NCBI GenBank assembly: GCA_029243585.1
Contig: JAQWRR010000097.1
Location: 1-32,399, forward strand
Source: Gammaproteobacteria bacterium
GTDB lineage: Bacteria; Pseudomonadota; Gammaproteobacteria; Steroidobacterales; Rariloculaceae
DNA: 32,399 bases
Reading direction: 5' to 3'
This document shows, one piece after another, positions 124 to 29,396 of this stretch (within the stretch, counting starts at the first letter, position 1; every line of letters begins with the position of its first letter). The translations under genes and the position numbers were made by a program. The notes beneath the pieces were generated by a model that searched no databases, was not told the origin of the DNA, and saw only the letters and a list, made by a program, of their open reading frames with translations.

Positions 124-306
124 ATGGTGAAATTTGATGCGGACAAGCTCGGCGAGCAATTAGATGCACTTAATCGAGAACAGTTTGACAAGATCGATAA
201 AAGGGTTGATGAAGTATTGGGAAACCTACACAAAAGCAAAGCGATGCCTAAACGGGCTAAAAACTCCAAATACTCACCTAATAGCCTTGCTCGCAAGCGG
301 GCATGA
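124..306 (+). CDS. Small charged hypothetical protein (60 aa)
   Basis: An unrecognised 60-residue, highly charged protein. It has no signal peptide or membrane segment. The first half (about residues 4-38) is Lys/Asp/Glu-rich and could form an amphipathic helix; the C-terminal third is basic (KRAKNSK...SLARKRA). An AAGG Shine-Dalgarno lies 7 nt before the ATG. The stop is 16 nt before the ATG of the next gene, so the two are probably co-transcribed. It could be a small nucleic-acid-binding or regulatory peptide, but no family is recognised. That it is translated is inferred only from the ribosome-binding site and its placement. Confidence 0.5.
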   Translation: MVKFDADKLGEQLDALNREQFDKIDKRVDEVLGNLHKSKAMPKRAKNSKYSPNSLARKRA

Positions 307-322
307 ATTAAAAGGATACACA

Positions 323-985
323 ATGCGTCTTATACAACTGACATTAGCTACTCTATCGCTTAGCTTTGTGGCACCAGCTTTTAGCCAAGGTTATACGTGG
401 ACTGAATATATTAGTAGAGAGGACCACTTTAGCGTCAGCTTTCCTGGCGACCCAACCATTGAAGAAATCAACTATCCCACAGAATATCGCATTACCTTGC
501 CAGGACGTGTATACAGTTATGAAGATGGCGGATCCCTCTACTCTGTAACAGTTGTGGACTATAACGATGCTATTGATATACATAATTCCCGAAATGAAGC
601 TTGTCAGGCATCAGGTGGAGATGGCGATCTCTGTCAGGATGATGGTCCTGAGGATATACGTGGGGCGATCGTCTACGCAACGTGGAATATCATGCAACGA
701 GATGGGGTTGATATTGTTCACTATGCACATTACAACTCTGACCGAGTCGAAGGTCATAACATTCGACTAATTGGTGATGATGGATCTCTTATCACTGTCG
801 TTATTCATATGCATGAAAATAAACTTTATATTCTCGAGGCAATGGTTCCGCGTGGGGCACCAGCACCAGGTCTATTCCAAATCTCATTGGCTTTTCTTGA
901 TGATGAATACAATCGTATTCGCTATGAATGGGTAGGAACAATGCTCTATTCTAATGGATACCCACCGACGCCTCGGGTTAGATAA
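323..985 (+). CDS. Secreted FPGDPTIEE-type protein, copy 1
   Basis: Function unknown. The 220-residue product starts with a Sec signal peptide (about residues 1-22, cleaved after APAFS). The ATG is preceded by AAAGGA at good spacing; an upstream in-frame ATG only gives a nonsense extension through the preceding small ORF and was rejected. The mature part opens with FSVSFPGDPTIEE, followed by a beta-rich region containing YSVTVVDY. It is clearly paralogous to the minus-strand protein at 28606-29280, which shares FPG(D/E)PTIEE, VTVVDY and a closing (L/F)FQ.SL.FLD segment. As in that copy, a DUF6152-type gene follows immediately (22 nt gap), so the two form a conserved pair. A soluble periplasmic role is inferred. 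Confidence 0.8.
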   Translation: MRLIQLTLATLSLSFVAPAFSQGYTWTEYISREDHFSVSFPGDPTIEEINYPTEYRITLPGRVYSYEDGGSLYSVTVVDYNDAIDIHNSRNEACQASGGDGDLCQDDGPEDIRGAIVYATWNIMQRDGVDIVHYAHYNSDRVEGHNIRLIGDDGSLITVVIHMHENKLYILEAMVPRGAPAPGLFQISLAFLDDEYNRIRYEWVGTMLYSNGYPPTPRVR

Positions 986-1007
986 CCCAGCTTTACGGAG
1001 ACATTAA

Positions 1008-1412
1008 ATGATCCAGAATTTTTATGTGAAACCAATGTGCTTTCTAGGGCTTCTAATTACCGCCCTCACATTACCAACTTGGGCTCATCATTCTCATAAT
1101 GCTTATGAAGTTACCGTCTGGGAAGATATAGAAGGTACGGTCAGCGAAGTGCATCTTATCAACCCTCACTCATGGCTTTATCTCAATGTCACAGATGAAA
1201 ATGGCGAAATAGCCACATGGTCCCTAGAAGCAGCCAGTCCAAATTCTATTTTTGAAAATGGAGTAAAACGCGAAGATGTACAGCCTGGCGATCAAATAAA
1301 GGCCAGAATACATCTGCTACGCGATGGTACTAATGGCGGACTCCTTGGTTACATAACTCCCATGCACGGTGATGCATCGCGTGGACATGGTATTGAGCTT
1401 GAGTGGGATTAA
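1008..1412 (+). CDS. DUF6152-type periplasmic protein, copy 1
   Basis: A 134-residue exported protein resembling the DUF6152 family, whose biochemical function is unknown. It has a signal peptide (about residues 1-26, ending PTWA) and then a mature N-terminus HHSHNAYE; the His cluster directly after the cleavage site is typical of the family and could bind metal. The core carries the GTV..VHLINPHSW segment, an acidic-polar beta region and LRDGTNGG. The start is supported by GGAG 7 nt upstream. It lies 22 nt after the secreted protein at 323-985. The same two-gene order recurs on the other strand at 28132-29280, with shared HHSH, VHLINPHSW and LRDG motifs. Family assignment is from remembered motifs. 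Confidence 0.78.
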   Translation: MIQNFYVKPMCFLGLLITALTLPTWAHHSHNAYEVTVWEDIEGTVSEVHLINPHSWLYLNVTDENGEIATWSLEAASPNSIFENGVKREDVQPGDQIKARIHLLRDGTNGGLLGYITPMHGDASRGHGIELEWD

Positions 1413-7197: not shown

Positions 7198-7221
7198 AGG
7201 GGTGAGCTAACACTCACCCCT
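7198..7221. terminator. Hairpin between convergent genes
   Basis: A perfect 9-bp stem AGGGGTGAG / CTCACCCCT with a 6-nt loop CTAACA. It sits 21 nt after the stop of the MmgE/PrpD gene and overlaps the stop codon of the minus-strand PQQ dehydrogenase gene. Neither side has a clear T-run, so it may be a weak bidirectional terminator or an mRNA 3'-end stabiliser. Confidence 0.5.
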
Positions 7222-8977
7222 CTGGGAGAGCAAAAGCATAGATCTCATTATGTCCGTGGACAGTTCGTACTCGGCCAAGAGCAGTTGGTCTTGCTGTTCC
7301 AGATTGGCCGTTACCAGTCATCACTACAATATACTGTCGGCCATCTACGGCATAGGTAATAGTGCTAGTTTGAATAATTCCGCCAACCACAGCACGCCAC
7401 AGTATTTCACCTGTATCGGAATCAAAAGCATTAAAACGTCGCTCCAAATCACCCCAGAACAGCAAATCCCCAGCTGTCACAAGAGCTGAGCCATTACCTG
7501 GAATGGCCTGTGAATGGATACGCTGCATATGTCCTGTAGAGAGATCTATTTTTGCAATACCAGCATATTCAGACGGTTCAATACCTGGACGAAGAACGGC
7601 ATTACGTGGTCCAAAACCCGCTGGCATTGAAGCGTTTGCCGCCATATCTAAACAAGCATCATGAAAAGGGATATATAAAGAGTTTCTGTTGGGATCATAC
7701 GCTGTAGACCAAAAGCTTCTCGTGTTATGAAAACAAATCAAACTTCTATCCCCATCCTGCTTGAAGACTCTGTCATAGTTAATTGTGGTGCGTCCTGTCT
7801 CAACGTTAATATCAGAAATGTTAAATCCTGGTACATCGTAGGGAAACGGTGTTGCCCAAAGAAATTCACCCGTAATTCTATCCAAAACAAAAATTCCTCC
7901 AGCTTCGCCAACGCTTGCAACTACTTCACGCTGCTCACCACGCTGAATGGCAGGATTTATCCATTTAACAGCCTCTGGGTCTGGTTCAAAAGTGGTAGTA
8001 AGAATTGTTCGTTCATGCGGATGATCTAAATCCCAATCATCACCCGGTAAGTGTTGGTAATACCATGCGAGCTCACCAGTATCGATATCCAGTGCTACTG
8101 TTGAGTTACTATAAAGATCTGCTGGTGCAGTAGCTGAAATTGCATCGGCACTACCGTGTCGAGTAAGCCGCGTATAGGGGTTTGGATTTGCAATACCCCA
8201 GTAAGTAAGCCTTTGCTCAGGGTCATAGGACCCGGGCAACCCCCATGAACTTGCAACCCTTTGCTCGACTGGAAGCTCGCCCCAACTATCTCCATCACGA
8301 GTCCCAGGTTCTGCAGTAGTATAAAATTTCCATACCTCTTCGCCAGTTTGGGCGTCATGCGCTGATATAAAACACCCAATCCGCTGCTTACAACTTCGAT
8401 TTGTTAGGACTTTCCCATCAGCTACCAGAACTCCGCCGGTATGCTGGGTATTTGTCTCGGGGGCGAATACCTCAGTTTCCCAACGAACACGACCATCTCT
8501 AGCATCTAGTGCTACCAGATACCCGTCAGGGGCCGGATAAAACACCATGTCATCATAAATACCAATGTTCTTGGTACGTGCAGTCTCAGCACGTCCAACA
8601 AACTCTGCAACCTCAGATGTAATATTTCGTCTGTAATTCCATATCTCATCACCTGTGGTGGCATCGATTGCCAGAATACTCGCTCCTGGCTGTGCAAGGT
8701 ACATAACACCTTTATATACGATAGGAACGGTTTCCTGAGTGCCTTGGGGCAATCCTCTTGACCAAGCTAAGGAAAGACTTGAAACATTTTTTCTATCTAT
8801 TTGATTTAAAGGACTAAATCTTTGCTGGTCATATGTGCGATTTATCATAACCCAATCAGAAGGATCCGGGTCTCGCATCGTACTTTCGGTAATTGGTTCA
8901 AAGATATCAACCTGAGCAAACGCTGATAATGCTATAAAATTGAATAAAACTAGTGCTCTTCTAAGTATTAGTTTCAT
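7214..8977 (-). CDS. PQQ-dependent dehydrogenase (quinoprotein), periplasmic
   Basis: A 587-residue quinoprotein of the methanol/ethanol-dehydrogenase superfamily; such enzymes oxidise alcohols or aldehydes in the periplasm using PQQ and pass electrons to a c-type cytochrome. A signal peptide (residues 1-21, ending AFA) is visible. The fold shows repeated propeller blades (ATTGDEIWNY at 106, DARDGRVRWETEV at 158, DAQTGEEVWKFYT at 208, DTGELAWYYQHLPGDDWDLDH at 299-319); the last contains the catalytic-region Asp motif. The vicinal Cys-Cys of methanol dehydrogenase is absent; instead Cys196 and Cys202 flank KQRIG. There is no fused cytochrome domain, so an external acceptor is required; the divergently encoded haem protein at 9233 is the obvious candidate. 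GGGGGGAG precedes the ATG. No PQQ-biosynthesis genes are present here. Confidence 0.9.
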   Translation of the reverse strand: MKLILRRALVLFNFIALSAFAQVDIFEPITESTMRDPDPSDWVMINRTYDQQRFSPLNQIDRKNVSSLSLAWSRGLPQGTQETVPIVYKGVMYLAQPGASILAIDATTGDEIWNYRRNITSEVAEFVGRAETARTKNIGIYDDMVFYPAPDGYLVALDARDGRVRWETEVFAPETNTQHTGGVLVADGKVLTNRSCKQRIGCFISAHDAQTGEEVWKFYTTAEPGTRDGDSWGELPVEQRVASSWGLPGSYDPEQRLTYWGIANPNPYTRLTRHGSADAISATAPADLYSNSTVALDIDTGELAWYYQHLPGDDWDLDHPHERTILTTTFEPDPEAVKWINPAIQRGEQREVVASVGEAGGIFVLDRITGEFLWATPFPYDVPGFNISDINVETGRTTINYDRVFKQDGDRSLICFHNTRSFWSTAYDPNRNSLYIPFHDACLDMAANASMPAGFGPRNAVLRPGIEPSEYAGIAKIDLSTGHMQRIHSQAIPGNGSALVTAGDLLFWGDLERRFNAFDSDTGEILWRAVVGGIIQTSTITYAVDGRQYIVVMTGNGQSGTARPTALGRVRTVHGHNEIYAFALPEG

Positions 8978-9202: not shown

Positions 9203-9220
9203 ACGTGAGTCTTCTCACGT
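9203..9220 (+). promoter_or_regulatory. Leader hairpin just upstream of the ribosome-binding site
   Basis: A perfect 7-bp inverted repeat ACGTGAG / CTCACGT with loop TCTT, ending 3 nt before the AGGAGAGGG ribosome-binding site of the cytochrome/propeller gene. In the transcript it would form a compact stem-loop that could modulate ribosome access or mRNA stability. No U-run follows, so it is not a simple terminator. Confidence 0.4.
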
Positions 9221-9232
9221 TTAGGAGAGGGA

Positions 9233-11359
9233 ATGAATAAGCAAACCGGAAACAATAAACTGGGGCTATTCTCAGCACTTCTAATGGCATTAGCTTGGGC
9301 GACTGGATCACAAGCACAAGTTGCCATTGATGGAGACGATATCGGTGGCATAGTCACTGGTCCTAATGGCCCAGAAGCTGGTGTTTGGGTAATAGCAGAA
9401 ACTGATGAGTTCGATACCTTTTATGCCAAAATTGTCGTAACTGATGATATGGGAAGGTATGTTGTACCTGACCTGCCTGATGCTAATTATGATGTTTGGG
9501 TGCGTGGATACGGACTTGTAGATTCGGATAAGGTTAATGCTAACCCCGGAGATGCTGTTGACCTGGACGCCATCATAGCTCCAAATGCTGCTGCTGCTGC
9601 TGAGATTTACCCAGCTATTGCATGGTATGCCATGTTGCACATGCCTACCGAAGAAGAGGTTTCTCGGTTTGAAGGCGGTATGGACTTTTATCGAAATCGC
9701 ATGAATAACAATGGCTGTATTGGTTGCCATATGTTAGGTAATAAAGCAACACGGGAAATATCACCAGAATTTGGTGAATTCGATAATCACGGAGCTGCCT
9801 GGATTCGAAGAGTTCAATCTGGACAGGCTGGTGCCAGAATGATGTCAGATCTAGCAGGCGATTTGCAGGGAATCCCTTTCAAATACTTCGCTGACTGGAC
9901 CCAACGAATTGCAGATGGCGAACTACCCTCATTTATTCCAGAACGGCCGCAGGGCGAGGAACGTAATATAGTCGCTACAGTTAGGGATTGGTCTGAACCT
10001 ACAGCCTATTTACATGACCTGATCTCAACTGATCGACGTGATCCTACTGTCAATGCAAATGGTTTGATATACGGATCTCCAGAACTTTCAACTGATAGAT
10101 TTCCAATTCTTAATCCAGTTGATAACACGACGGATAGCTTCATGGCTCCAGTACGTGACAACGATACACCGTCCTACGCTACTGTAGCTGCAACTCAGCC
10201 TTCGGTATTTTGGGGTGATCAACGCATCTGGAACAGTAAAGCTAATTCTCATAACCCAATGTTTGATCAAGATGGGCGTGTCTGGTACACCGCACGAATT
10301 AGAGGCCCACAGAATGGTGATTTCTGTCGTGAAGGTTCTAGTCATCCCTCGGCAGAGGCATTTCCAACGGCTCGTGCCAACCGTCAACTGTCTGTATATG
10401 ATCCTGAAACGGAAGAGTACACATTCATAGACACCTGTTATGGCACCCATCATTTACAGTTCGGTTATGACGATAACAATACCCTATGGACTAGTGGTGG
10501 TGGCGAAGTAATTGGTTGGTTAGATAGCAAACAATTCCTTGAGACGGGAGATGCAGAAGCCTCTCAAGGTTGGACACCAGCAATTCTAGATACTAACGGC
10601 AATGGTAAGCGTGATGCTTATGTCGAACCAGGTGATGCAGTTAATCCAGAGATGGATAAGCGTATTTTGCCAAGCTATTACGCAATAATGCCAAATCCTG
10701 CTGATGACTCCATTTGGGGTTCTAGTAGATCTGACTGGAACGGTAGCGTAATCAGACTGGAGCCTGGTGATAACCCTTCTGAGACAGCCCTGGTGGAACA
10801 ATACAATGTTCCTCGAGAAAAAGGTGGCTTTGGTATACGCGGAGCGGACATTGATAGCAAAGGCGTTATCTGGGGCTCTCTTGGTAGTGGACATATGAGT
10901 GAATTCGACCGAAGCAAATGCACAGGTCCACTTAATGGTCCTGAAGCTACCGGTGATCACTGCCCTGAGGGATGGACATTCCATCGCTATCCAGGCCCTG
11001 GACATCCAGGATTTGAGGAATTCAGTGCTGAAGCTAGTTATTACAGTTGGGTAGATCAACATAACACTGCCGGCCTAGGTGAAGACGTTCCTATGTCTAC
11101 GGCTAATCTGTACGATGGTGTTCACGCACTTGTTGATGGAGATGATGGCGAAAAAGAATGGGTAACAATGCGCATTCCTTATCCGCTTGGCTTCTACAGC
11201 AAAGGGTTTGATGGTCGAATTGACGATCCAAATGCTGGCTGGAAAGGACGAGGTCTGTGGGTATCAGAAGGTGATCGGACACCTTTCTGGTTTGAAGAGA
11301 ACAATGGCAAACCAATCGTTGTACACTTCCAGGTACGTCCAGATCCTCTTGCAAAATAA
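9233..11359 (+). CDS. Exported monoheme cytochrome with CarboxypepD-reg and beta-propeller domains, copy 1
   Basis: A 708-residue periplasmic protein that I describe rather than name. Domains in order: signal peptide (1-29, ending SQAQ); a carboxypeptidase-regulatory-like beta-sandwich (about 35-115; GGIVTGPNGPEAGVWV, DVWVRGYGLVDS); a short Ala run; one covalent c-haem site CIGCH at 162-166; then a long C-terminal region with repeats like FDQDGRVWYTAR, TLWTSGGGEVIGWLD, SIWGSS and GVIWGSLGSGHMSEFD, resembling virginiamycin-B-lyase/SMP-30-type propellers. Conserved cysteines (FCREGS, DTCYGTHH, SKCTGPLNGP, HCPEGW) may form disulfides. It is paralogous to 25798-28002. Divergence from the PQQ dehydrogenase suggests it accepts electrons from that enzyme; this is inference. 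GGAGAGGG supports the ATG, and a strong terminator follows. Confidence 0.85.
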   Translation: MNKQTGNNKLGLFSALLMALAWATGSQAQVAIDGDDIGGIVTGPNGPEAGVWVIAETDEFDTFYAKIVVTDDMGRYVVPDLPDANYDVWVRGYGLVDSDKVNANPGDAVDLDAIIAPNAAAAAEIYPAIAWYAMLHMPTEEEVSRFEGGMDFYRNRMNNNGCIGCHMLGNKATREISPEFGEFDNHGAAWIRRVQSGQAGARMMSDLAGDLQGIPFKYFADWTQRIADGELPSFIPERPQGEERNIVATVRDWSEPTAYLHDLISTDRRDPTVNANGLIYGSPELSTDRFPILNPVDNTTDSFMAPVRDNDTPSYATVAATQPSVFWGDQRIWNSKANSHNPMFDQDGRVWYTARIRGPQNGDFCREGSSHPSAEAFPTARANRQLSVYDPETEEYTFIDTCYGTHHLQFGYDDNNTLWTSGGGEVIGWLDSKQFLETGDAEASQGWTPAILDTNGNGKRDAYVEPGDAVNPEMDKRILPSYYAIMPNPADDSIWGSSRSDWNGSVIRLEPGDNPSETALVEQYNVPREKGGFGIRGADIDSKGVIWGSLGSGHMSEFDRSKCTGPLNGPEATGDHCPEGWTFHRYPGPGHPGFEEFSAEASYYSWVDQHNTAGLGEDVPMSTANLYDGVHALVDGDDGEKEWVTMRIPYPLGFYSKGFDGRIDDPNAGWKGRGLWVSEGDRTPFWFEENNGKPIVVHFQVRPDPLAK

Positions 11360-15489: not shown

Positions 15490-15942
15490 ATGGCTAACTT
15501 TACAATCAATAGTGAAAGTATAGAGGTAGATGCCAATCCTAATACCCCGCTTTTGTGGGTACTACGTGAGCACTTAAAACTTACTGGCACAAAATTTGGA
15601 TGCGGTGTAGGGCTATGTGGCGCCTGTACAGTCCATGTTGACGGTAACTCCACCTTTGCCTGCATGATCCCGGTCTCAGCAGTCGAGGGAAAAGAAGTAA
15701 CTACTATAGAGGCACAATCAAACCCAGCTCAAAATGCACTAAAAGAGGCTTGGGTTGCTGAGGCAGTTCCTCAATGTGGCTACTGTCAGTCAGGACAAAT
15801 TATGCGTGCAGCTAATCTCTTAGAAAACAACCCAAAGCCTAGCAGAGAGGATATCGTTAACCACATGCGTACAAATATATGTCGCTGTGGAACCTACAAT
15901 CGAATCATTAAGGCAATCGAACGTGCTGCAGAGGAGGTTTGA
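15490..15942 (+). CDS. [2Fe-2S] subunit of a molybdenum hydroxylase (IorA-like)
   Basis: The small electron-transfer subunit of a xanthine-oxidase-family hydroxylase, similar to isoquinoline 1-oxidoreductase alpha (IorA). The 150-residue protein has a plant-type ferredoxin cluster site, Cys38/43/46 in CGVGLCGAC plus Cys58, and the second cluster site Cys96/99 (CGYCQSG) with Cys131/133 (NICRCGTYNRI). It has no signal peptide of its own. Its stop is 1 nt before the ATG of the large subunit, whose GAGGAGG ribosome-binding site lies within this gene, so translation is coupled. It is presumed to be co-exported with the Tat-signalled partner. Confidence 0.93.
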   Translation: MANFTINSESIEVDANPNTPLLWVLREHLKLTGTKFGCGVGLCGACTVHVDGNSTFACMIPVSAVEGKEVTTIEAQSNPAQNALKEAWVAEAVPQCGYCQSGQIMRAANLLENNPKPSREDIVNHMRTNICRCGTYNRIIKAIERAAEEV

Positions 15943-15943
15943 A

Positions 15944-18211
15944 ATGACTTACAACAAACCACCTATTCAATCTCCCAAAACAACTCGTAGAGAATTTTTA
16001 CAAAGTGTGGGAATAACTTTTGCTGTGGGATCAACAGGCATTGTAGGTGCATGCTCACTAGATTCCAGCAGTGAGCCAAATGAACCACTACCCTCCTCCG
16101 GTAACAATACAATTTCTGCTAATGCCTGGGTGACCATTAGTGCCGATGATTCAATAAAAATTATGTATGCCGGAACAGAGATGGGACAGGGCTCGATGAC
16201 TACCCTACCCCTAGTCCTAGCTGAGGAGTTAGATGCTGACTGGGAAAATGTAAATGTAGATATAGTTTCTGTGCATGATCCAGTTTATGGAAACCCAATT
16301 CGTTACACCTATTATGGTTTTCCAATTCTTTATACTGCTGGTAGCAGAACCTTAGAAGCCTACTACCCAGTAATGCGTCAAGCTGGCGCACAGGCACGAA
16401 AATTCCTACTTGATACTGCTGCAGCTGAATGGAGAGTTCCTGTTGCAGAACTTAAAACAGAACTTAGTCAAGTATCTCATACAGCATCTGGAAGAACTCT
16501 GAGCTATGGACAAATTATTGAGCTAGCTGAGTTGCCAGACAATTTGCCATTAGTGGATGAAAAGGAATACAAGAGGCAAGAAGACTACCGTTACTTAGGC
16601 AAAGACATTACGCGAGTCGACGTACCAGGAAAATCTGATGGATCGGCGGAGTTTGGTATTGATGCACAGGTGCCTGGTATGGTTTATGCGTCCGTTCTTC
16701 GTGCTCCAGTAGAGGGCGAGGAGCCGTTAGAAATCAATGACGATAAAACTCTAGAAATTGACGGTGTAATCGATGTTGTTTCACTCCCCCATGGCGTAGC
16801 AGTTGTGGCAGAGACTGTAGAGGCTGCTTTCTGGGGAAAGAGTGCACTTGAAGTCATCTGGAGTACTAATTCACCTTTTAGAAATGTAACCCAAGGCGAA
16901 ACTCTCGATACCTATGAAACACATGCAAGAGACCTTACATTTAGCACTGATAGTCCTCTATGGCAAAACGTAGGTGATATCGAACCTGCTTTTAATGAGG
17001 CAAATACTGTTGTTGAAGAGATGTATCGTGCTGACCCAGCCTACCATGCACAAATGGAGCCAATGAACGCAACGGCTAATGTCTCAGATGATGGAAAATC
17101 TGCGGAAATCTGGGTAAGCACTCAAACCCAAAGTCTTACCGTTATGGCTGCTGCCGATACCCTAGAAACGTCAATCGATAAAATAACTTTGCACCCAATG
17201 TTAATAGGTGGTGGATATGGGCGTAGGGGAGAATATCAAGCTAAATATGTTGATGAGGCACTTTTAGTTTCTCGTGCTATCGGCAAACCAGTAAAAGTTA
17301 TTTGGAGTAGAGAAGAAGACGTTAAAGATGGCATCTTTAGACCTCTTGCTGCACAACTTATGCGAGCCGCAATTGATAGCGAAGGAAAAATCACAGCACT
17401 ACAACAACGTGTGGCTACGCCATCGGTGCTGAGCTATTTCAATGTGCCTCGCTGGAAACTTGCAGAAAAACGTGATGGTATCTCCATGAACGGTGCTCAA
17501 ACGTCAAGATATGACATACCTAATATTAGATCCGAACATCTAATCATGGATCGAGGCTCTCGTGTAGCTGCTTGGAGAGGTGTAGGCACCAGTTATACAC
17601 GTTTTGCCAATGAATCTTTTATTGATGAACTTGCTCATAGAGAAGGAGCTGACCCTCTACAATTTCGACTTGATTTGGCTCGTAATAATCCTGATGGAAA
17701 AAAAGTCCTTGAAGAGGTTGGACTAATGGCAGATTGGTCTCGAAAACGAGAAGGTAGTGCCTTGGGTGTTGCATTATCTGATTATGGGGGCTTTTCAGTT
17801 GCTGCCGGTATAGCTGAAGTCAGCGTCAACGAACAAAACGGTGAAATCCAAGTGCTTAATTACTGGATGGTAATTGATGCAGGATTCCTTGTTGCTCCAA
17901 GAAATGTGAATGCACAAATGGAAGGTAATGTGATCATGGGTCTTAGCAATGCACTAAAAGAAAGGATCACCATTAGTGACGGCATAGTTGATCAATCTAA
18001 CTTTTATGACTACCAAATTATGCGTATGGATGAAATGCCTGATATTCATGTAAAAGCAATCATTAATAACAAATCCCCGAGTGGGGTTGGTGAGCTAGGA
18101 TTGGCTACAACAGGCGCATCTGTTGCAAATGCAGTGTTTGCTGCTACTGGTGCAAGGGTAAGAGAACTACCATTAACCCCTGATCGAGTATTGGCGGCAC
18201 TTCGAGGGTAA
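15944..18211 (+). CDS. Tat-exported molybdopterin hydroxylase/aldehyde dehydrogenase large subunit (IorB-like)
   Basis: A 755-residue Mo-cofactor catalytic subunit of the xanthine-oxidase family, most like IorB and membrane-type aldehyde dehydrogenase subunits, which hydroxylate N-heterocycles or oxidise aldehydes in the periplasm. A twin-arginine signal TTRREFLQ (13-20) precedes a hydrophobic stretch ending in GAC, which could be a lipobox. Cofactor motifs include GTEMGQGSMT, GGGYGRRGEYQ, AWRGVG and the catalytic-Glu segment GVGELGLATTGAS (Glu717). The upstream alternative ATG at 15887 lies within the previous gene and was rejected. There is no FAD subunit, so electrons probably leave through the [2Fe-2S] subunit to a c-type cytochrome. 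The substrate cannot be specified. Confidence 0.91.
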   Translation: MTYNKPPIQSPKTTRREFLQSVGITFAVGSTGIVGACSLDSSSEPNEPLPSSGNNTISANAWVTISADDSIKIMYAGTEMGQGSMTTLPLVLAEELDADWENVNVDIVSVHDPVYGNPIRYTYYGFPILYTAGSRTLEAYYPVMRQAGAQARKFLLDTAAAEWRVPVAELKTELSQVSHTASGRTLSYGQIIELAELPDNLPLVDEKEYKRQEDYRYLGKDITRVDVPGKSDGSAEFGIDAQVPGMVYASVLRAPVEGEEPLEINDDKTLEIDGVIDVVSLPHGVAVVAETVEAAFWGKSALEVIWSTNSPFRNVTQGETLDTYETHARDLTFSTDSPLWQNVGDIEPAFNEANTVVEEMYRADPAYHAQMEPMNATANVSDDGKSAEIWVSTQTQSLTVMAAADTLETSIDKITLHPMLIGGGYGRRGEYQAKYVDEALLVSRAIGKPVKVIWSREEDVKDGIFRPLAAQLMRAAIDSEGKITALQQRVATPSVLSYFNVPRWKLAEKRDGISMNGAQTSRYDIPNIRSEHLIMDRGSRVAAWRGVGTSYTRFANESFIDELAHREGADPLQFRLDLARNNPDGKKVLEEVGLMADWSRKREGSALGVALSDYGGFSVAAGIAEVSVNEQNGEIQVLNYWMVIDAGFLVAPRNVNAQMEGNVIMGLSNALKERITISDGIVDQSNFYDYQIMRMDEMPDIHVKAIINNKSPSGVGELGLATTGASVANAVFAATGARVRELPLTPDRVLAALRG

Positions 18212-21211: not shown

Positions 21212-22381
21212 TTATTGATCGCGTTGATTTTTTTCTATAACTGGGAATGAGATAAATCCTGTAAAAGTGAATTTCTGAACACGTCGATTCACAGGCTGCA
21301 CAGGAGTTACTTCTGCCGTATACAGATTACCTTCAGAATCAACTGACAAATGATGAAGAGTTCCAAACTGTCCGGACTCAGACCCCCAGGAACCAAACGA
21401 ATCAAGAAAAGCTAAGGTTTTACGATCAAAAATCATTATCTGTGCCTGACTTCTATTAGCTACATAAAGATAGCGTTGTTCAGGATCATGTGAAAAAGCA
21501 ATTCCTGCCGCTGTTTGCCCATTTCCACAATCTGGTGCATTGCATTCACGCCCAATAAAAACCTGATTTATATACAAGCCTGTGGTTGTAAAAACCTGTA
21601 CTCGTCTGCCACCACGATCTGCAACGTAAACTAAACCATCTTCTGAAACCTTTATTGCATGTACAGGTGGCACAAATTGTTGATGGCCATCTGGACCTAT
21701 AGCATTTGATGATGCTGAAGCATCATCTGATGGTACGTTACCAAACGCTCCCCACATACGCTTAAATACTCCAGTATCCGCATCAAAAACAATGATTCGT
21801 TTGTTGCCATACCCATCTGCTACAAATAATTCATTTGTTTCCTCATATACAAACATATCTGCTGGTCGCCAAAGATTATCGGTATCAGCATTAGTTTTTA
21901 CTTGCCCTCTTCGGCCAATTTGCATAATAAACTCACCATTTTTGGTGAATTTTAAAATTTGATCTTCATTCCCATTACCACCAATCCAAACAAAACCATT
22001 TGGATCTATATGTATTCCATGCTCACTCTCTGGCCAATCATAGCCAGAACTTGGGCCACCCCATGCTTGTAGAAACTCCCCTTGCTGATCAAACTCCAAT
22101 ACTGGAGGTGCAGCTCGAGGGCGCTCTTCATCGCTTAATGTATTGGGGCGTTGAAGCACCCATAGGTGTCCCTCATCATCAACCCAAGTACTAGAAACAA
22201 TAGCCATGACCCATTGATTAGGTAACTTTGCCCAAGACCCTTCTGCATAAAACTGCGGAACTGCCTGAATGCTTGCATTGCTATCAGCAACCTCTTTTAC
22301 TTCAAAAGATACTTGGCCAAATACGGAACTATTTATTCCGAAGAACAAAGTTAAACCAACCCCAACAGCTTTGTTGACCAT
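21212..22381 (-). CDS. Exported NHL-repeat six-bladed propeller protein
   Basis: A 389-residue secreted propeller with a signal peptide (ending SSVFG). Blades carry NHL/peptidyl-amidating-lyase-like repeats: GHLWVLQRP, VLEFDQQGEFLQAWGG, GFVWIGGNGNEDQILKFTKNGEF, ELFVADGYGNKRIIVFD, LVYVADRGGRRVQVFTTTG, YLYVANRSQAQIMIFD and NLYTAEV. A Cys pair (RECNAPDC) may form a disulfide. The family includes lyases and purely structural binding proteins, so catalysis cannot be assigned. I prefer the ATG at 22381, with GAAGG 5 nt upstream; a GTG at 22387 would add two residues. A perfect palindrome lies 46 nt upstream. The stop is 18 nt after the convergent PepSY stop. Confidence 0.83.
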   Translation of the reverse strand: MVNKAVGVGLTLFFGINSSVFGQVSFEVKEVADSNASIQAVPQFYAEGSWAKLPNQWVMAIVSSTWVDDEGHLWVLQRPNTLSDEERPRAAPPVLEFDQQGEFLQAWGGPSSGYDWPESEHGIHIDPNGFVWIGGNGNEDQILKFTKNGEFIMQIGRRGQVKTNADTDNLWRPADMFVYEETNELFVADGYGNKRIIVFDADTGVFKRMWGAFGNVPSDDASASSNAIGPDGHQQFVPPVHAIKVSEDGLVYVADRGGRRVQVFTTTGLYINQVFIGRECNAPDCGNGQTAAGIAFSHDPEQRYLYVANRSQAQIMIFDRKTLAFLDSFGSWGSESGQFGTLHHLSVDSEGNLYTAEVTPVQPVNRRVQKFTFTGFISFPVIEKNQRDQ

Positions 22382-22426
22382 AATCACCTTCTATATTCTA
22401 AAATAATGTGCCCAGATATCTTATCT

Positions 22427-25797: not shown

Positions 25798-28002
25798 ATG
25801 AGAATAACGCTGTCTGAATCTATAGTAAGAGTCGTAGTGGCTTGCATAATCACGTTACTAGTTGCTTGTGGACAAGAATCCACTACTACCGCCCCTGCCC
25901 CTGCCCCTGCCCCTGCCCCTGCTACCCCTAATCCCGTCCAAATTGATGCGGACGATATAGGAGGCGTTGTTACAAGCGCAAATGGTCCAGAAGCAGGTGT
26001 CTGGGTGATCGTTGAAACTGCAGACCTTGGCACTGGATTTATTAGAACTGTCGTTACTAATGATTCTGGATACTACCTAGTCCCCGATCTCCCCTCTGCC
26101 AACTATGATGTTTGGGTACGAGGTTATGGGCTGGTTGACTCACCTAAAGTTCAAGCTGCACCGGGTGAAAACTTAGATCTAACTGCTGTTGTAGCTCCAA
26201 GCGCTGCAGCAGCAGCACAATACTATCCAGCTGGATATTGGGCCTCCTTGATTGAAATACCTGGCACAGATGAGTTTCCAGGTGGTGGGCCACAAGGAAA
26301 CGGTATTTCCACTAACATGCACACCCAAGCACAATGGCTGCAATGGCTTAAAACTGGCAGTTGCTACACATGCCATCAACTTGGCAACAAAGCTACAAGA
26401 GAACTATCCGAAGAATTAGGTGAATTTCCGGACTCGGTTACCGCTTGGGCACGTCGTATCCAGTCTGGACAGGCTGGAGCAGATATGGCTCGTCAGAGTG
26501 GAGATTTTGGTCAAGGCGCTTTTCTAGGCATGCTTGCCGACTGGACTGATCGTATTGCTGCGGGTGAATTACCACCAGCTCCACCCCGTCCAGAAGGTCT
26601 TGAAAGGAATGTCGTAGTCACTCAATGGGACTGGCTAGATGAAAAGGCTTACCTTCATGATCAAATATCAAGTGACAGAAGAAACCCACAAGTAAATGCT
26701 GGAGGATTAATCTACGGATCTCCTGAACTGAGCACGGATCTTATGCCTGTACTGGACCCTGTCCAAAACACTGTCACTGAAATACCATTAACCACAAGGG
26801 AAGAGTTGCCACCTGCTGCTATGCAAGCTATGTTGCAACCGTCACCTTATTGGGGTGATGAGGTTATATGGGATAGCACAACAAATGCGCATAATCCTAT
26901 GTTTGATCAAGACGGACGATTATGGATGACGGCTAAAGTACGTCCTTCCGAGAACCCTGATTTTTGTAAGGCTGGCTCGGATCATCCATCTGCAGCATTG
27001 ACTCCACTTGGTTCCGCGGGGCGGCATGCTTCCATGTATGACCCTGAAACTGGTGAAATACATCATATCTCCACCTGCTTTAGCACACATCATCTCAATT
27101 TTGCAGATGATGAAAACAACACTCTTTGGTTTAACGGATATGCCAGTCAAGTTGTTGGTTGGCTTGACACTAAAATGTGGGACGAAACTGGCGATGAAGA
27201 AGCCTCACAAGGCTGGACTGCTCTTATTCTTGATACGAATGCAAACGGAACAAGAGATGAATACGTTGGTCCAGATGAGCCAATTGACCCGACAAAGGAC
27301 AAACTAATTACTGATGCCTTTTATGCTACTGCACCAGCTGTTGATGGTTCTGTATGGGGTTCTATCTTGGGTTTTCCAGGTGCAATTGTGAGACTTGATC
27401 CCGGGTCTAACCCTCCAGCAACTGCACTTGCTGAACGATATGAACTGCCATGGGATGAAGCAACCACCAATATTAATGGATATAGTCCACGCGGTATGGA
27501 TATAGACAGAAATGGAGTCGCATGGATGGGCCTTGCCAGTGGTCACATGGCCAGTTTTGATCGTAGCAAATGTACTAATCCCTTAAATGGTCCAGAAGCT
27601 ACAGGAAGGCATTGTCCCGAAGGTTGGACTTTTTATGAAGAACCTTTACCTCAGTTCAAAAATGTAACTGACTCAGGTAGTGCTGAGGGAAGCTATTACA
27701 CTTGGGTCGATCAGTTCGACTCGCTTGGTCTGGGAGCTAATACGCCTATTAATACAGGCAACCAATCTGAAGGATTGCTTGCTTTAAATGATGAAGAATG
27801 GGTCGTAATGCGCGTTCCCTATCCTATGGGTTTCTATGTAAAGGGCATGGATGGTCGAATTGACGATCCTAATATTGGATGGAAAGGCAAGGGCGTTTGG
27901 ACTGCATACGGCTCTCGCGCACCCTTTCATATGGAAACAGGCAAAGGAACATTACCTAAGGTCGCACATTTTCAAATTCGTCCTGATCCACTAGCAAAAT
28001 AA
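25798..28002 (+). CDS. Monoheme cytochrome/propeller lipoprotein, copy 2
   Basis: A 734-residue paralogue of the 9233-11359 product. It differs at the N-terminus: a lipoprotein signal with lipobox LVAC, Cys24, then a Pro-Ala linker, so it is probably membrane-tethered where copy 1 looks soluble. Then come the carboxypeptidase-regulatory-like domain (about 45-130; DVWVRGYGLVDS), the haem site CYTCH at 189-193 and the propeller-like C-terminus with the same landmark blocks (IYGSPELSTD, FDQDGRLWMTA, STCFSTHH, EASQGWT, SKCTNPLNGPEATG, GRIDDPN). Conserved cysteines match copy 1. It probably shuttles electrons or binds a ligand beside periplasmic oxidases; this is inference. A GAGGAGG ribosome-binding site and a strong terminator bracket it. 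Confidence 0.85.
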   Translation: MRITLSESIVRVVVACIITLLVACGQESTTTAPAPAPAPAPATPNPVQIDADDIGGVVTSANGPEAGVWVIVETADLGTGFIRTVVTNDSGYYLVPDLPSANYDVWVRGYGLVDSPKVQAAPGENLDLTAVVAPSAAAAAQYYPAGYWASLIEIPGTDEFPGGGPQGNGISTNMHTQAQWLQWLKTGSCYTCHQLGNKATRELSEELGEFPDSVTAWARRIQSGQAGADMARQSGDFGQGAFLGMLADWTDRIAAGELPPAPPRPEGLERNVVVTQWDWLDEKAYLHDQISSDRRNPQVNAGGLIYGSPELSTDLMPVLDPVQNTVTEIPLTTREELPPAAMQAMLQPSPYWGDEVIWDSTTNAHNPMFDQDGRLWMTAKVRPSENPDFCKAGSDHPSAALTPLGSAGRHASMYDPETGEIHHISTCFSTHHLNFADDENNTLWFNGYASQVVGWLDTKMWDETGDEEASQGWTALILDTNANGTRDEYVGPDEPIDPTKDKLITDAFYATAPAVDGSVWGSILGFPGAIVRLDPGSNPPATALAERYELPWDEATTNINGYSPRGMDIDRNGVAWMGLASGHMASFDRSKCTNPLNGPEATGRHCPEGWTFYEEPLPQFKNVTDSGSAEGSYYTWVDQFDSLGLGANTPINTGNQSEGLLALNDEEWVVMRVPYPMGFYVKGMDGRIDDPNIGWKGKGVWTAYGSRAPFHMETGKGTLPKVAHFQIRPDPLAK
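25891..25920 (+). repeat. Five tandem GCCCCT hexamers (Ala-Pro linker)
   Basis: Five exact copies of GCCCCT encode (Ala-Pro)5 directly after the lipobox region of the second cytochrome/propeller gene. In-frame hexamer gain or loss would change only the length of the tether between the lipid anchor and the first domain. Confidence 0.9.
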
Positions 28003-28131: not shown

Positions 28132-28542
28132 TTACATATCAAAAAAACCGTCATCATCTGGTCTCGCCTGATGACCATCCCAATCCTTGATAGTGCCATC
28201 TCTAGCCTGAAGGAAACCTAGAAGACAACCGGGACCTCCATCCCGGAGCTGATGGCAACGCACTTTAAGCGTATCTCCTTGGCCTATGTAATCATAGGTA
28301 ACACCAAGTCTTGATAGGCTTACGCGATTTGTCGCTTCAAGTGCCCATTCAACCTTCTCACCATTCTCATCTGTAACCTCTAAAAAAATCCACGAGTGCG
28401 GATTAATAAGATGCACTTCATTGACAACACCTTCTAAGTCTATAAATGTCTGTTCATAGTTTCCATGAGAATGATGCGCCCATGCTGGTAATGACAGAAC
28501 TATCACTGCAGCCCCAAATAATCCAAATAACCTAGAAGACAT
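28132..28542 (-). CDS. DUF6152-type periplasmic protein, copy 2
   Basis: A 136-residue paralogue of the 1008-1412 product: a signal peptide ending PAWA, then mature HHSHGNYE, EVHLINPHSW, a polar beta region (VTDENGEKVEWALEA) and LRDGGPG. It ends with an acidic tail (ARPDDDGFFDM) unlike copy 1. The ATG at 28542 has AGGAGG 6 nt upstream; the GTG at 28548 overlaps that region and is less likely. It lies 63 nt downstream of the second secreted FPGEPTIEE gene in the same order as the pair at the window start. The His cluster may bind metal; function unknown. Confidence 0.78.
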   Translation of the reverse strand: MSSRLFGLFGAAVIVLSLPAWAHHSHGNYEQTFIDLEGVVNEVHLINPHSWIFLEVTDENGEKVEWALEATNRVSLSRLGVTYDYIGQGDTLKVRCHQLRDGGPGCLLGFLQARDGTIKDWDGHQARPDDDGFFDM

Positions 28543-28605
28543 ATCCACCCTCCTTAGAAGGCCTTATTATAACAAACGTTTTTTATTGATTTAACAAGTA
28601 ACACC

Positions 28606-29280
28606 TTAACGCCTACGGGGCGGAAGGTCAGTCCACTCTCTCATCGAGTTATGGTAATAATATTCATAACGTAGATTTGCGCCATCCTCATCAAGAAAGC
28701 CTAGAGACTGCTGGAAAAAACCTGGGCCTCTCACGCCATCAGGAGCTGTAGCTTCTATGATATATAGACGATCATAGTGTAGATACAAGGATGCAAATGT
28801 TCGCGATTGATCAGGATTAGTAAGTTGAATTTGTAATCCTTCTACTAGATTTGTGAAGTTCCACATAAAATGAGTAACCTCTGCATCTCGCTGAAAGTAC
28901 TGCCATGCTCCATATACCATAGACCCTTGGGTATCTACTCGCCAGTAACCAACACCTGTGGTAAGACTTCCAAGGCAAGTCTCAGCTCCCTCAGGGCAAT
29001 CAATTTCACCAAGTCTCTCGGCATGTATTCTCTCTGCATCGCTATAATCAACCACCGTCATTGAATAACGCCCTCTTGGGCTTTCTGAGGTATAAACATG
29101 CGCCGGTAACATAGCGCCATATTCAGACTCCCAGGTGATTTCTTCTATTGTTGGTTCACCTGGGAAATTGAGAGAAAAACCATCTTCATAACTGCTGTAT
29201 TCAATCCATCCTTGAGCCAATGAAGCCCCCGACATAAACAGCAGCATTGCAAACGGATACAGATAACAAGATTTTGGCAT
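28606..29280 (-). CDS. Secreted FPGEPTIEE-type protein, copy 2
   Basis: A 224-residue paralogue of the product at 323-985. A signal peptide (about 1-22, ending ASLAQ) precedes FSLNFPGEPTIEEITWESEYG, SMTVVDYSDAERIHAERLG and the closing GPGFFQQSLGFLDEDG. Copy 2 has two cysteines (CPEGAETC) at the place where copy 1 also has a Cys pair. I chose the ATG at 29280 because AGGA lies upstream as in copy 1 and the signal peptide starts there; 29319 would add 13 basic residues. It is followed by the DUF6152 gene. Function unknown, presumed periplasmic. Confidence 0.8.
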   Translation of the reverse strand: MPKSCYLYPFAMLLFMSGASLAQGWIEYSSYEDGFSLNFPGEPTIEEITWESEYGAMLPAHVYTSESPRGRYSMTVVDYSDAERIHAERLGEIDCPEGAETCLGSLTTGVGYWRVDTQGSMVYGAWQYFQRDAEVTHFMWNFTNLVEGLQIQLTNPDQSRTFASLYLHYDRLYIIEATAPDGVRGPGFFQQSLGFLDEDGANLRYEYYYHNSMREWTDLPPRRR

Positions 29281-29396
29281 TTTTTCTATCCTTTTTTTGC
29301 CTATAACCATCGACTTCACAACAATTGGCTAGTATTAATTATGAGCGAAGTTTACCGAGTAAACGAGATCTATGAAACATAAATAACAAGTTAAGC

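Follow-up and report, generated by a model that had tools for sequence, protein, structure and literature searches.

An undescribed bacterial protein family joining a CxxCH haem c motif to a Vgb-like beta-propeller, possibly a periplasmic oxidoreductase

The complete gene at 9233..11359 (+) of the window, i.e., the whole 32,399-nucleotide stretch of gammaproteobacterial DNA analyzed here, encodes a 708-aa protein composed of an N-terminal beta-sandwich, a helical segment carrying a single CxxCH motif, and a seven-bladed beta-propeller resembling virginiamycin B lyase (Vgb). This three-part description holds for an undescribed family, which is related, as a variant, to known propeller-haem proteins of the periplasm. 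The function that we favor, at slightly less than an even chance, is that of an exported three-domain periplasmic oxidoreductase, in which a His-rich, probably metal-binding pocket of the propeller would be wired to haem c. The initial annotation had proposed the same three parts (CarboxypepD-reg, single CxxCH, and Vgb-like propeller), and these were borne out by the sandwich model PF13620, by the CxxCH of the family members, and by the predicted structure, as described below. Its description as an "unusual domain chain" was right in that the chain is real and uncharacterized, and needed correction in that the arrangement is conserved throughout a family and is no one-off fusion.

The open reading frame was confirmed as a complete gene by an AGGAG sequence at 9223-9227, upstream of its ATG, and by the 135-member family alignment. 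A perfect short inverted repeat, GTGAG-TCTT-CTCAC (9205-9218), lies directly upstream of this ribosome-binding site. Residues 1-28 (9233..9316, +), with a Lys-rich start, a hydrophobic core, and the sequence SQA|Q, were read by eye as a likely Sec signal peptide; this segment is the least conserved of the family and is unstructured, with low confidence, in the model. Residues 37-113 (9341..9571, +) form beta strands in the model and correspond to the carboxypeptidase-regulatory-like sandwich. PF13620 (CarboxypepD_reg) matched the 708-aa protein below its curated cut-off (E = 2.9e-4, 21.6 bits versus 32.3), scored 30.7 for the paralogue at 25798, and, with E allowed up to 0.5, was detected in 48/48 aligned relatives, the best of them reaching 7.1e-9. 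The helical haem c domain (residues ~119-235; 9587..9937, +) and the propeller (residues 245-702; 9965..11338, +) follow. An AlphaFold model of the 708-aa protein, calculated with an alignment of 48 sequences as input, had a mean pLDDT of 90 and a pTM of 0.90, so that the relative placement of the domains is predicted confidently and the propeller that had been suspected from the sequence was indeed modeled.

The putative haem attachment site is firm. The motif C162-I-G-C165-H166 (CIGCH; 9716..9730, +) is conserved in an alignment of 135 members reaching down to 39% identity, with Cys162, Cys165, and His166 each present in 135/135, so that no lack of conservation across homologues was seen. 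Among 20,000 shuffled sequences with the composition of the protein, only 22 contained a CxxCH, and a chance origin is ruled out by the complete conservation. Met203 (9839..9841, +), present in 134/135 members and located after a stretch with weak alignment to cytochrome c551, is a candidate distal ligand and probably the sixth ligand of the haem. In the model, the domain has the order helix-CxxCH-helix-Met-helix, as in class I cytochromes c (c551/c552; PF13442), with which it shares an alpha helix followed by a single CxxCH, an invariant Met 37 residues past the haem His, and a closing helix. It differs from them in its internal position between sandwich and propeller and in a sequence similarity that stays below threshold: Cytochrome_CBB3 (PF13442) matched weakly in 19/48 sequences (best E 0.0062), and the only solved sequences touched by the haem domain were cytochromes c551/c552 (E 0.17-0.65). 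Modeled alone, the domain reached a pLDDT of 87, and a Foldseek search of this isolated model against the PDB returned no cytochrome c fold. An hhalign comparison with neighboring di-haem cytochromes was also weak (5%), so the assignment to class I cytochromes c rests on motifs and layout. In relative L144, Met203 is replaced by Asn.

Among solved structures, the modeled propeller was closest to Vgb. Residues 245-702 aligned with the Vgb structure 2z2n over 288 residues at 2.7 Å with a VIA-align Z of 22.7, the best of 976 aligned chains, exceeding the general WD40 background by about 3 Z units, and a profile-profile comparison (hhalign) with Vgb-family proteins gave a probability of 94% and an E of 1.4e-7. 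The initial suggestion of a Vgb-like propeller is well supported by these results. The structural alignment runs end to end, with residue 245 opposite Vgb residue 2 (Vgb numbering taken from the 2z2n sequence); assuming no gap, this start places His261 opposite Vgb Tyr18. Tyr18, His228, and His270 of Vgb have a catalytic role, and each lies where an inner strand begins, within a P-[Y/H]-G-I pattern. In the alignment with the Vgb family, the same inner-strand position is occupied by His340 (S-H-N-P) in blade 2, His406 (T-H-H-L) in blade 3, Tyr483 (Y-Y-A-I) in blade 4, and Arg536 (I-R-G-A-D-I) in blade 5. A second Vgb-family comparison concurred for blade 2 and was about one residue off for blade 3. 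The register is further supported by two relatives that carry "SPHGID", the literal Vgb motif, at the position of Arg536. It is therefore likely, judging from the aligned sequences, that His261, His340, and His406 occupy the inner-strand positions of Vgb Tyr18, His228, and His270.

The likeness to Vgb (2z2n/2z2p/2qc5; PF24684) thus comprises the seven-bladed fold, the end-to-end alignment, and polar residues at matching inner-strand positions, whereas Vgb has no haem and consists of one domain of about 295 residues, and the propeller of this family lies below Pfam detection. The Vgb_lyase model PF24684 did not match the 708-aa protein with E allowed up to 1, and none of the 48 relatives matched it with E allowed up to 0.5. 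In Vgb, Glu268, His270, and Glu284 of blade 7 are the catalytic/Mg and base residues. They fall on Tyr650, Leu652 (L/M/I in the family), and Gly680 in the end-to-end register, in which blade 7 was placed by hand. The binding sites of substrate and Mg2+ are described as close to conserved polar side chains of blades 6 and 7 (PMC8916777). The Glu268/His270/Glu284 set is seemingly absent in this hand-placed mapping, which makes Vgb chemistry unlikely, and the earlier suggestion that the propeller could be a lyase domain is not supported as regards a Vgb-type lyase. A Vgb-type lyase opening cyclic or ester-linked substrates, with a purely structural haem, would accord with Vgb being the best structural match; we regard it as very improbable, given the apparent loss of these residues, the lack of a PF24684 match, and the fact that a haem motif without a role would be unlikely to persist in 135/135 members.

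Several strongly conserved residues of the propeller are predicted to line the mouth of its central channel. His261 (10013..10015, +), the likely blade 1 equivalent of Vgb Tyr18, His340 (10250..10252, +), and Tyr483 (10679..10681, +), the last aligned with "PYGI", were found in 135/135 members, and Arg536 (10838..10840, +) in 133/135, the remaining two having the His of "SPHGID". The conserved TC.xTHH motif reported initially was identified as TCYGTHH (residues 401-407), of which C402-YGT-H406-H407 (10436..10453, +) lies in blade 3 at the "PH" position of the Vgb family; Cys402 and His407 are conserved in 135/135, His406 in 134/135, and Thr405 in 126/135. Since this inner-strand position is that of the Vgb active-site residues, the motif should face, and most likely sits at, the mouth of the propeller. 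His554 (10892..10894, +; 132/135) belongs to the blade 5 hairpin and, from the blade pattern, is likely on the top face. Five of the 12 His residues of the propeller (261, 340, 406, 407, and 554) are kept at >= 95%. Cys365 (10325..10327, +; 135/135) probably forms a disulfide with Cys402, and Cys563 and Cys577 in the blade 5-6 insertion (10919..10963, +; 134/135 each, the exception being a gap) probably form another. These two invariant Cys pairs fit an oxidizing compartment. Exchanges of key residues were seen in a few relatives, namely His406 to Gln in L068 (from 9808) and His554 to Ser in L084 and L085. Together with L144, these relatives are possible natural variants for tests.

Taken together, these features would be accommodated by the following mechanism. 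The protein would be exported to the periplasm, where the N-terminal sandwich may serve as a structural or docking module and the helical segment would carry one covalent haem c, ligated axially by His166 and probably by Met203. Where the central channel opens, the invariant His261, His340, His406/407, Tyr483, Arg536, and Tyr603 would line a pocket that most likely holds a metal ion and a substrate. A small organic substrate may be oxidized (or reduced) there, and electrons would pass via the fused haem to soluble c-type cytochromes; the direction of flow and the contact between haem and pocket are presumed, and a coupling of the two is plausible on the basis of the conserved residues. The reading as an oxidoreductase draws on the conservation of the CxxCH and of Met203, the conserved propeller His residues at Vgb positions, the confident model, the invariant Cys pairs, the periplasmic redox neighbors of some loci, and the presence of three paralogues in the source genome. 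Against it count the haem domain without a Foldseek cytochrome match and with the 5% hhalign result, the lack of a constant neighbor, and the lack of CxxCH enrichment nearby. A bolder form, which we consider possible and clearly less probable, is that of a new class of periplasmic metallo-haem enzymes with a multi-His metal centre (His261, His340, His406/407, and perhaps His554) in the Vgb-type propeller, electronically coupled to the fused haem c, duplicated and substrate-specialized in environmental Pseudomonadota and Acidobacteriota. If the pocket binds a metal, the family would join the small set of redox proteins that act at a propeller mouth, which includes cytochrome cd1 nitrite reductase, nitrous oxide reductase, and thiocyanate dehydrogenase.

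Cytochrome cd1 nitrite reductase and quinohaemoprotein alcohol dehydrogenase are periplasmic proteins with a small c haem domain and a catalytic propeller holding a cofactor; their propellers are eight-bladed and contain haem d1 or PQQ. They share with the present family the pairing of such a haem domain with a propeller, and no sequence relation to them was found. This shared logic raises the alternative of a quinoprotein or other organic-cofactor dehydrogenase, whose propeller would hold PQQ or a similar cofactor and be fused to a cytochrome c, as in the quinohaemoprotein alcohol dehydrogenases. PQQ-type and GSDH-type dehydrogenases are sometimes adjacent to the family gene: the divergent neighbor at 7214-8977 (-) encodes a 587-aa PQQ-type propeller protein (PF01011, E 8e-58; 267 bits with TIGR04528, "acido-empty-quinoprotein", below the cut-off of that model), and four copies, among them that of an annotated Microvirga plasmid, where the GSDH gene is short, have a soluble GSDH-type dehydrogenase nearby. 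However, no PQQ (PF01011/PF13360) or GSDH model matched the propeller of the 708-aa protein at E up to 1 in the same run that detected the 7214-8977 neighbor, and the fold is nearest to the seven-bladed Vgb, in contrast to the eight blades of PQQ alcohol dehydrogenases. We therefore consider an organic-cofactor dehydrogenase improbable. Two further genes of the window encode a 391-aa NHL-repeat propeller protein (21212-22387, -) and a molybdenum subunit of the xanthine-dehydrogenase type (15887-18211, +), whose best Pfam stretch starts at residue 361 and leaves a long N-terminal part unmatched.

The co-directional neighbors of the family genes, upstream and downstream, were scanned with Pfam and gave a mixed list with no common partner. 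A di-haem cytochrome c family was present in 8 family loci, and solute-binding proteins adjoin the family gene in a few loci. Proteins with CxxCH were not enriched beside the family gene (10/268 near versus 34/722 farther; P = 0.6). The neighborhood hints at periplasmic redox chemistry and is proof of nothing. In another genome (L103:203-3384), two Vgb-like propeller genes adjoin a CxxCH-motif gene, an arrangement which suggests that propeller and cytochrome may also exist as separate neighbors. Pairs of a no-Pfam protein of 237-273 aa and a DUF6152 protein are encoded at both ends of the window, at 164-1412 (+) and 28132-29319 (-), and proteins related to them were met again close to the family gene in 14 loci.

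The lack of a conserved enzyme partner, together with the solute-binding proteins of those few loci, would suit a redox sensor or ligand-binding protein, in which a small molecule or partner protein is bound by the propeller, the sandwich provides docking to a surface, and the haem reports or relays the redox state without catalysis. Sandwich and propeller domains are, moreover, often binding modules. This explanation appears rather unlikely to us, though the least so of the alternatives, because the invariant His/Tyr/Arg polar ring at the mouth exceeds what binding usually needs, and the protein has neither a fused signaling domain nor a constant signaling partner. The missing partner gene also argues against a role within a larger redox complex of the periplasm, in which the protein would share a catalytic centre with another one, comparable to hydrazine synthase with its propeller and haem subunits. 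Hydrazine synthase does couple a seven-bladed propeller with c haems, and fused relatives of it are frequent among environmental bacteria (PMC12758564); its beta subunit (5c2v_B) was weakly matched by the Vgb-family profile. By its description, however, it is set apart, with domains separate or reordered, two haems on the gamma part, and no CarboxypepD_reg-like domain described (PMC12758564), whereas the present family has one haem and another domain order. A complex subunit is, in our estimate, as improbable as an organic-cofactor dehydrogenase, and the periplasmic oxidoreductase is retained as the preferred reading.

The family is stable, multi-copy, and spread across Pseudomonadota, Acidobacteriota, and several candidate phyla. 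Searches of the GTDB contig set yielded 182 tblastn-confirmed relative stretches, 80 of which were kept; nearly all of these are collinear from the sandwich through the C-terminus. An accidental fusion or a misassembly was considered and rejected, the chain being collinear in >100 relatives. Record titles of the relatives named Pseudomonadota, Acidobacteriota, Rokubacteria, Binatia, and delta-proteobacteria, single titles of metagenome bins being unreliable. The family was found in 21/39 genomes sampled as relatives (own genus, family, and order), in 2/274 sampled from the class (one a short fragment, the other the source genome), and in 3/299 sampled from the phylum. Of 297 genomes from the phylum to which an acidobacterial relative belongs, roughly a third of a hundred were positive, often with several copies, as counted by hand from the table with short sandwich-only matches excluded. 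The source genome has three copies, namely the gene described here, a second one in the window at 25798..28002 (+) that encodes 734 aa with 56% identity and the same invariant set, and a third on contig 51 (52%). In the tree of 135 members, these paralogues fall into separate clades, deep in the case of the second copy, each shared with other genomes, indicating that the copies are old. That a single genome keeps three such old copies suggests that they serve several substrates.

The initial annotation had recognized no characterized protein with this combination, and our searches agreed. Pfam and NCBIfam contain no model of the whole protein or of the propeller, and neither the protein nor its 48-row profile had a sequence match among solved structures at E up to 10. 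PHROGs gave no match, and a viral structure library returned unspecific propellers only. The literature search found no paper on the family and none linking Vgb-type lyases with cytochrome c, an absence that does not prove the family undescribed. The sole annotation met for the family, in Microvirga, was "carboxypeptidase-like regulatory domain-containing protein", which names the sandwich only; a widespread, multi-copy, and strongly constrained family is yet annotated by its weakest part. Cultured strains of Microvirga carry a family copy, which makes the function accessible to laboratory test.
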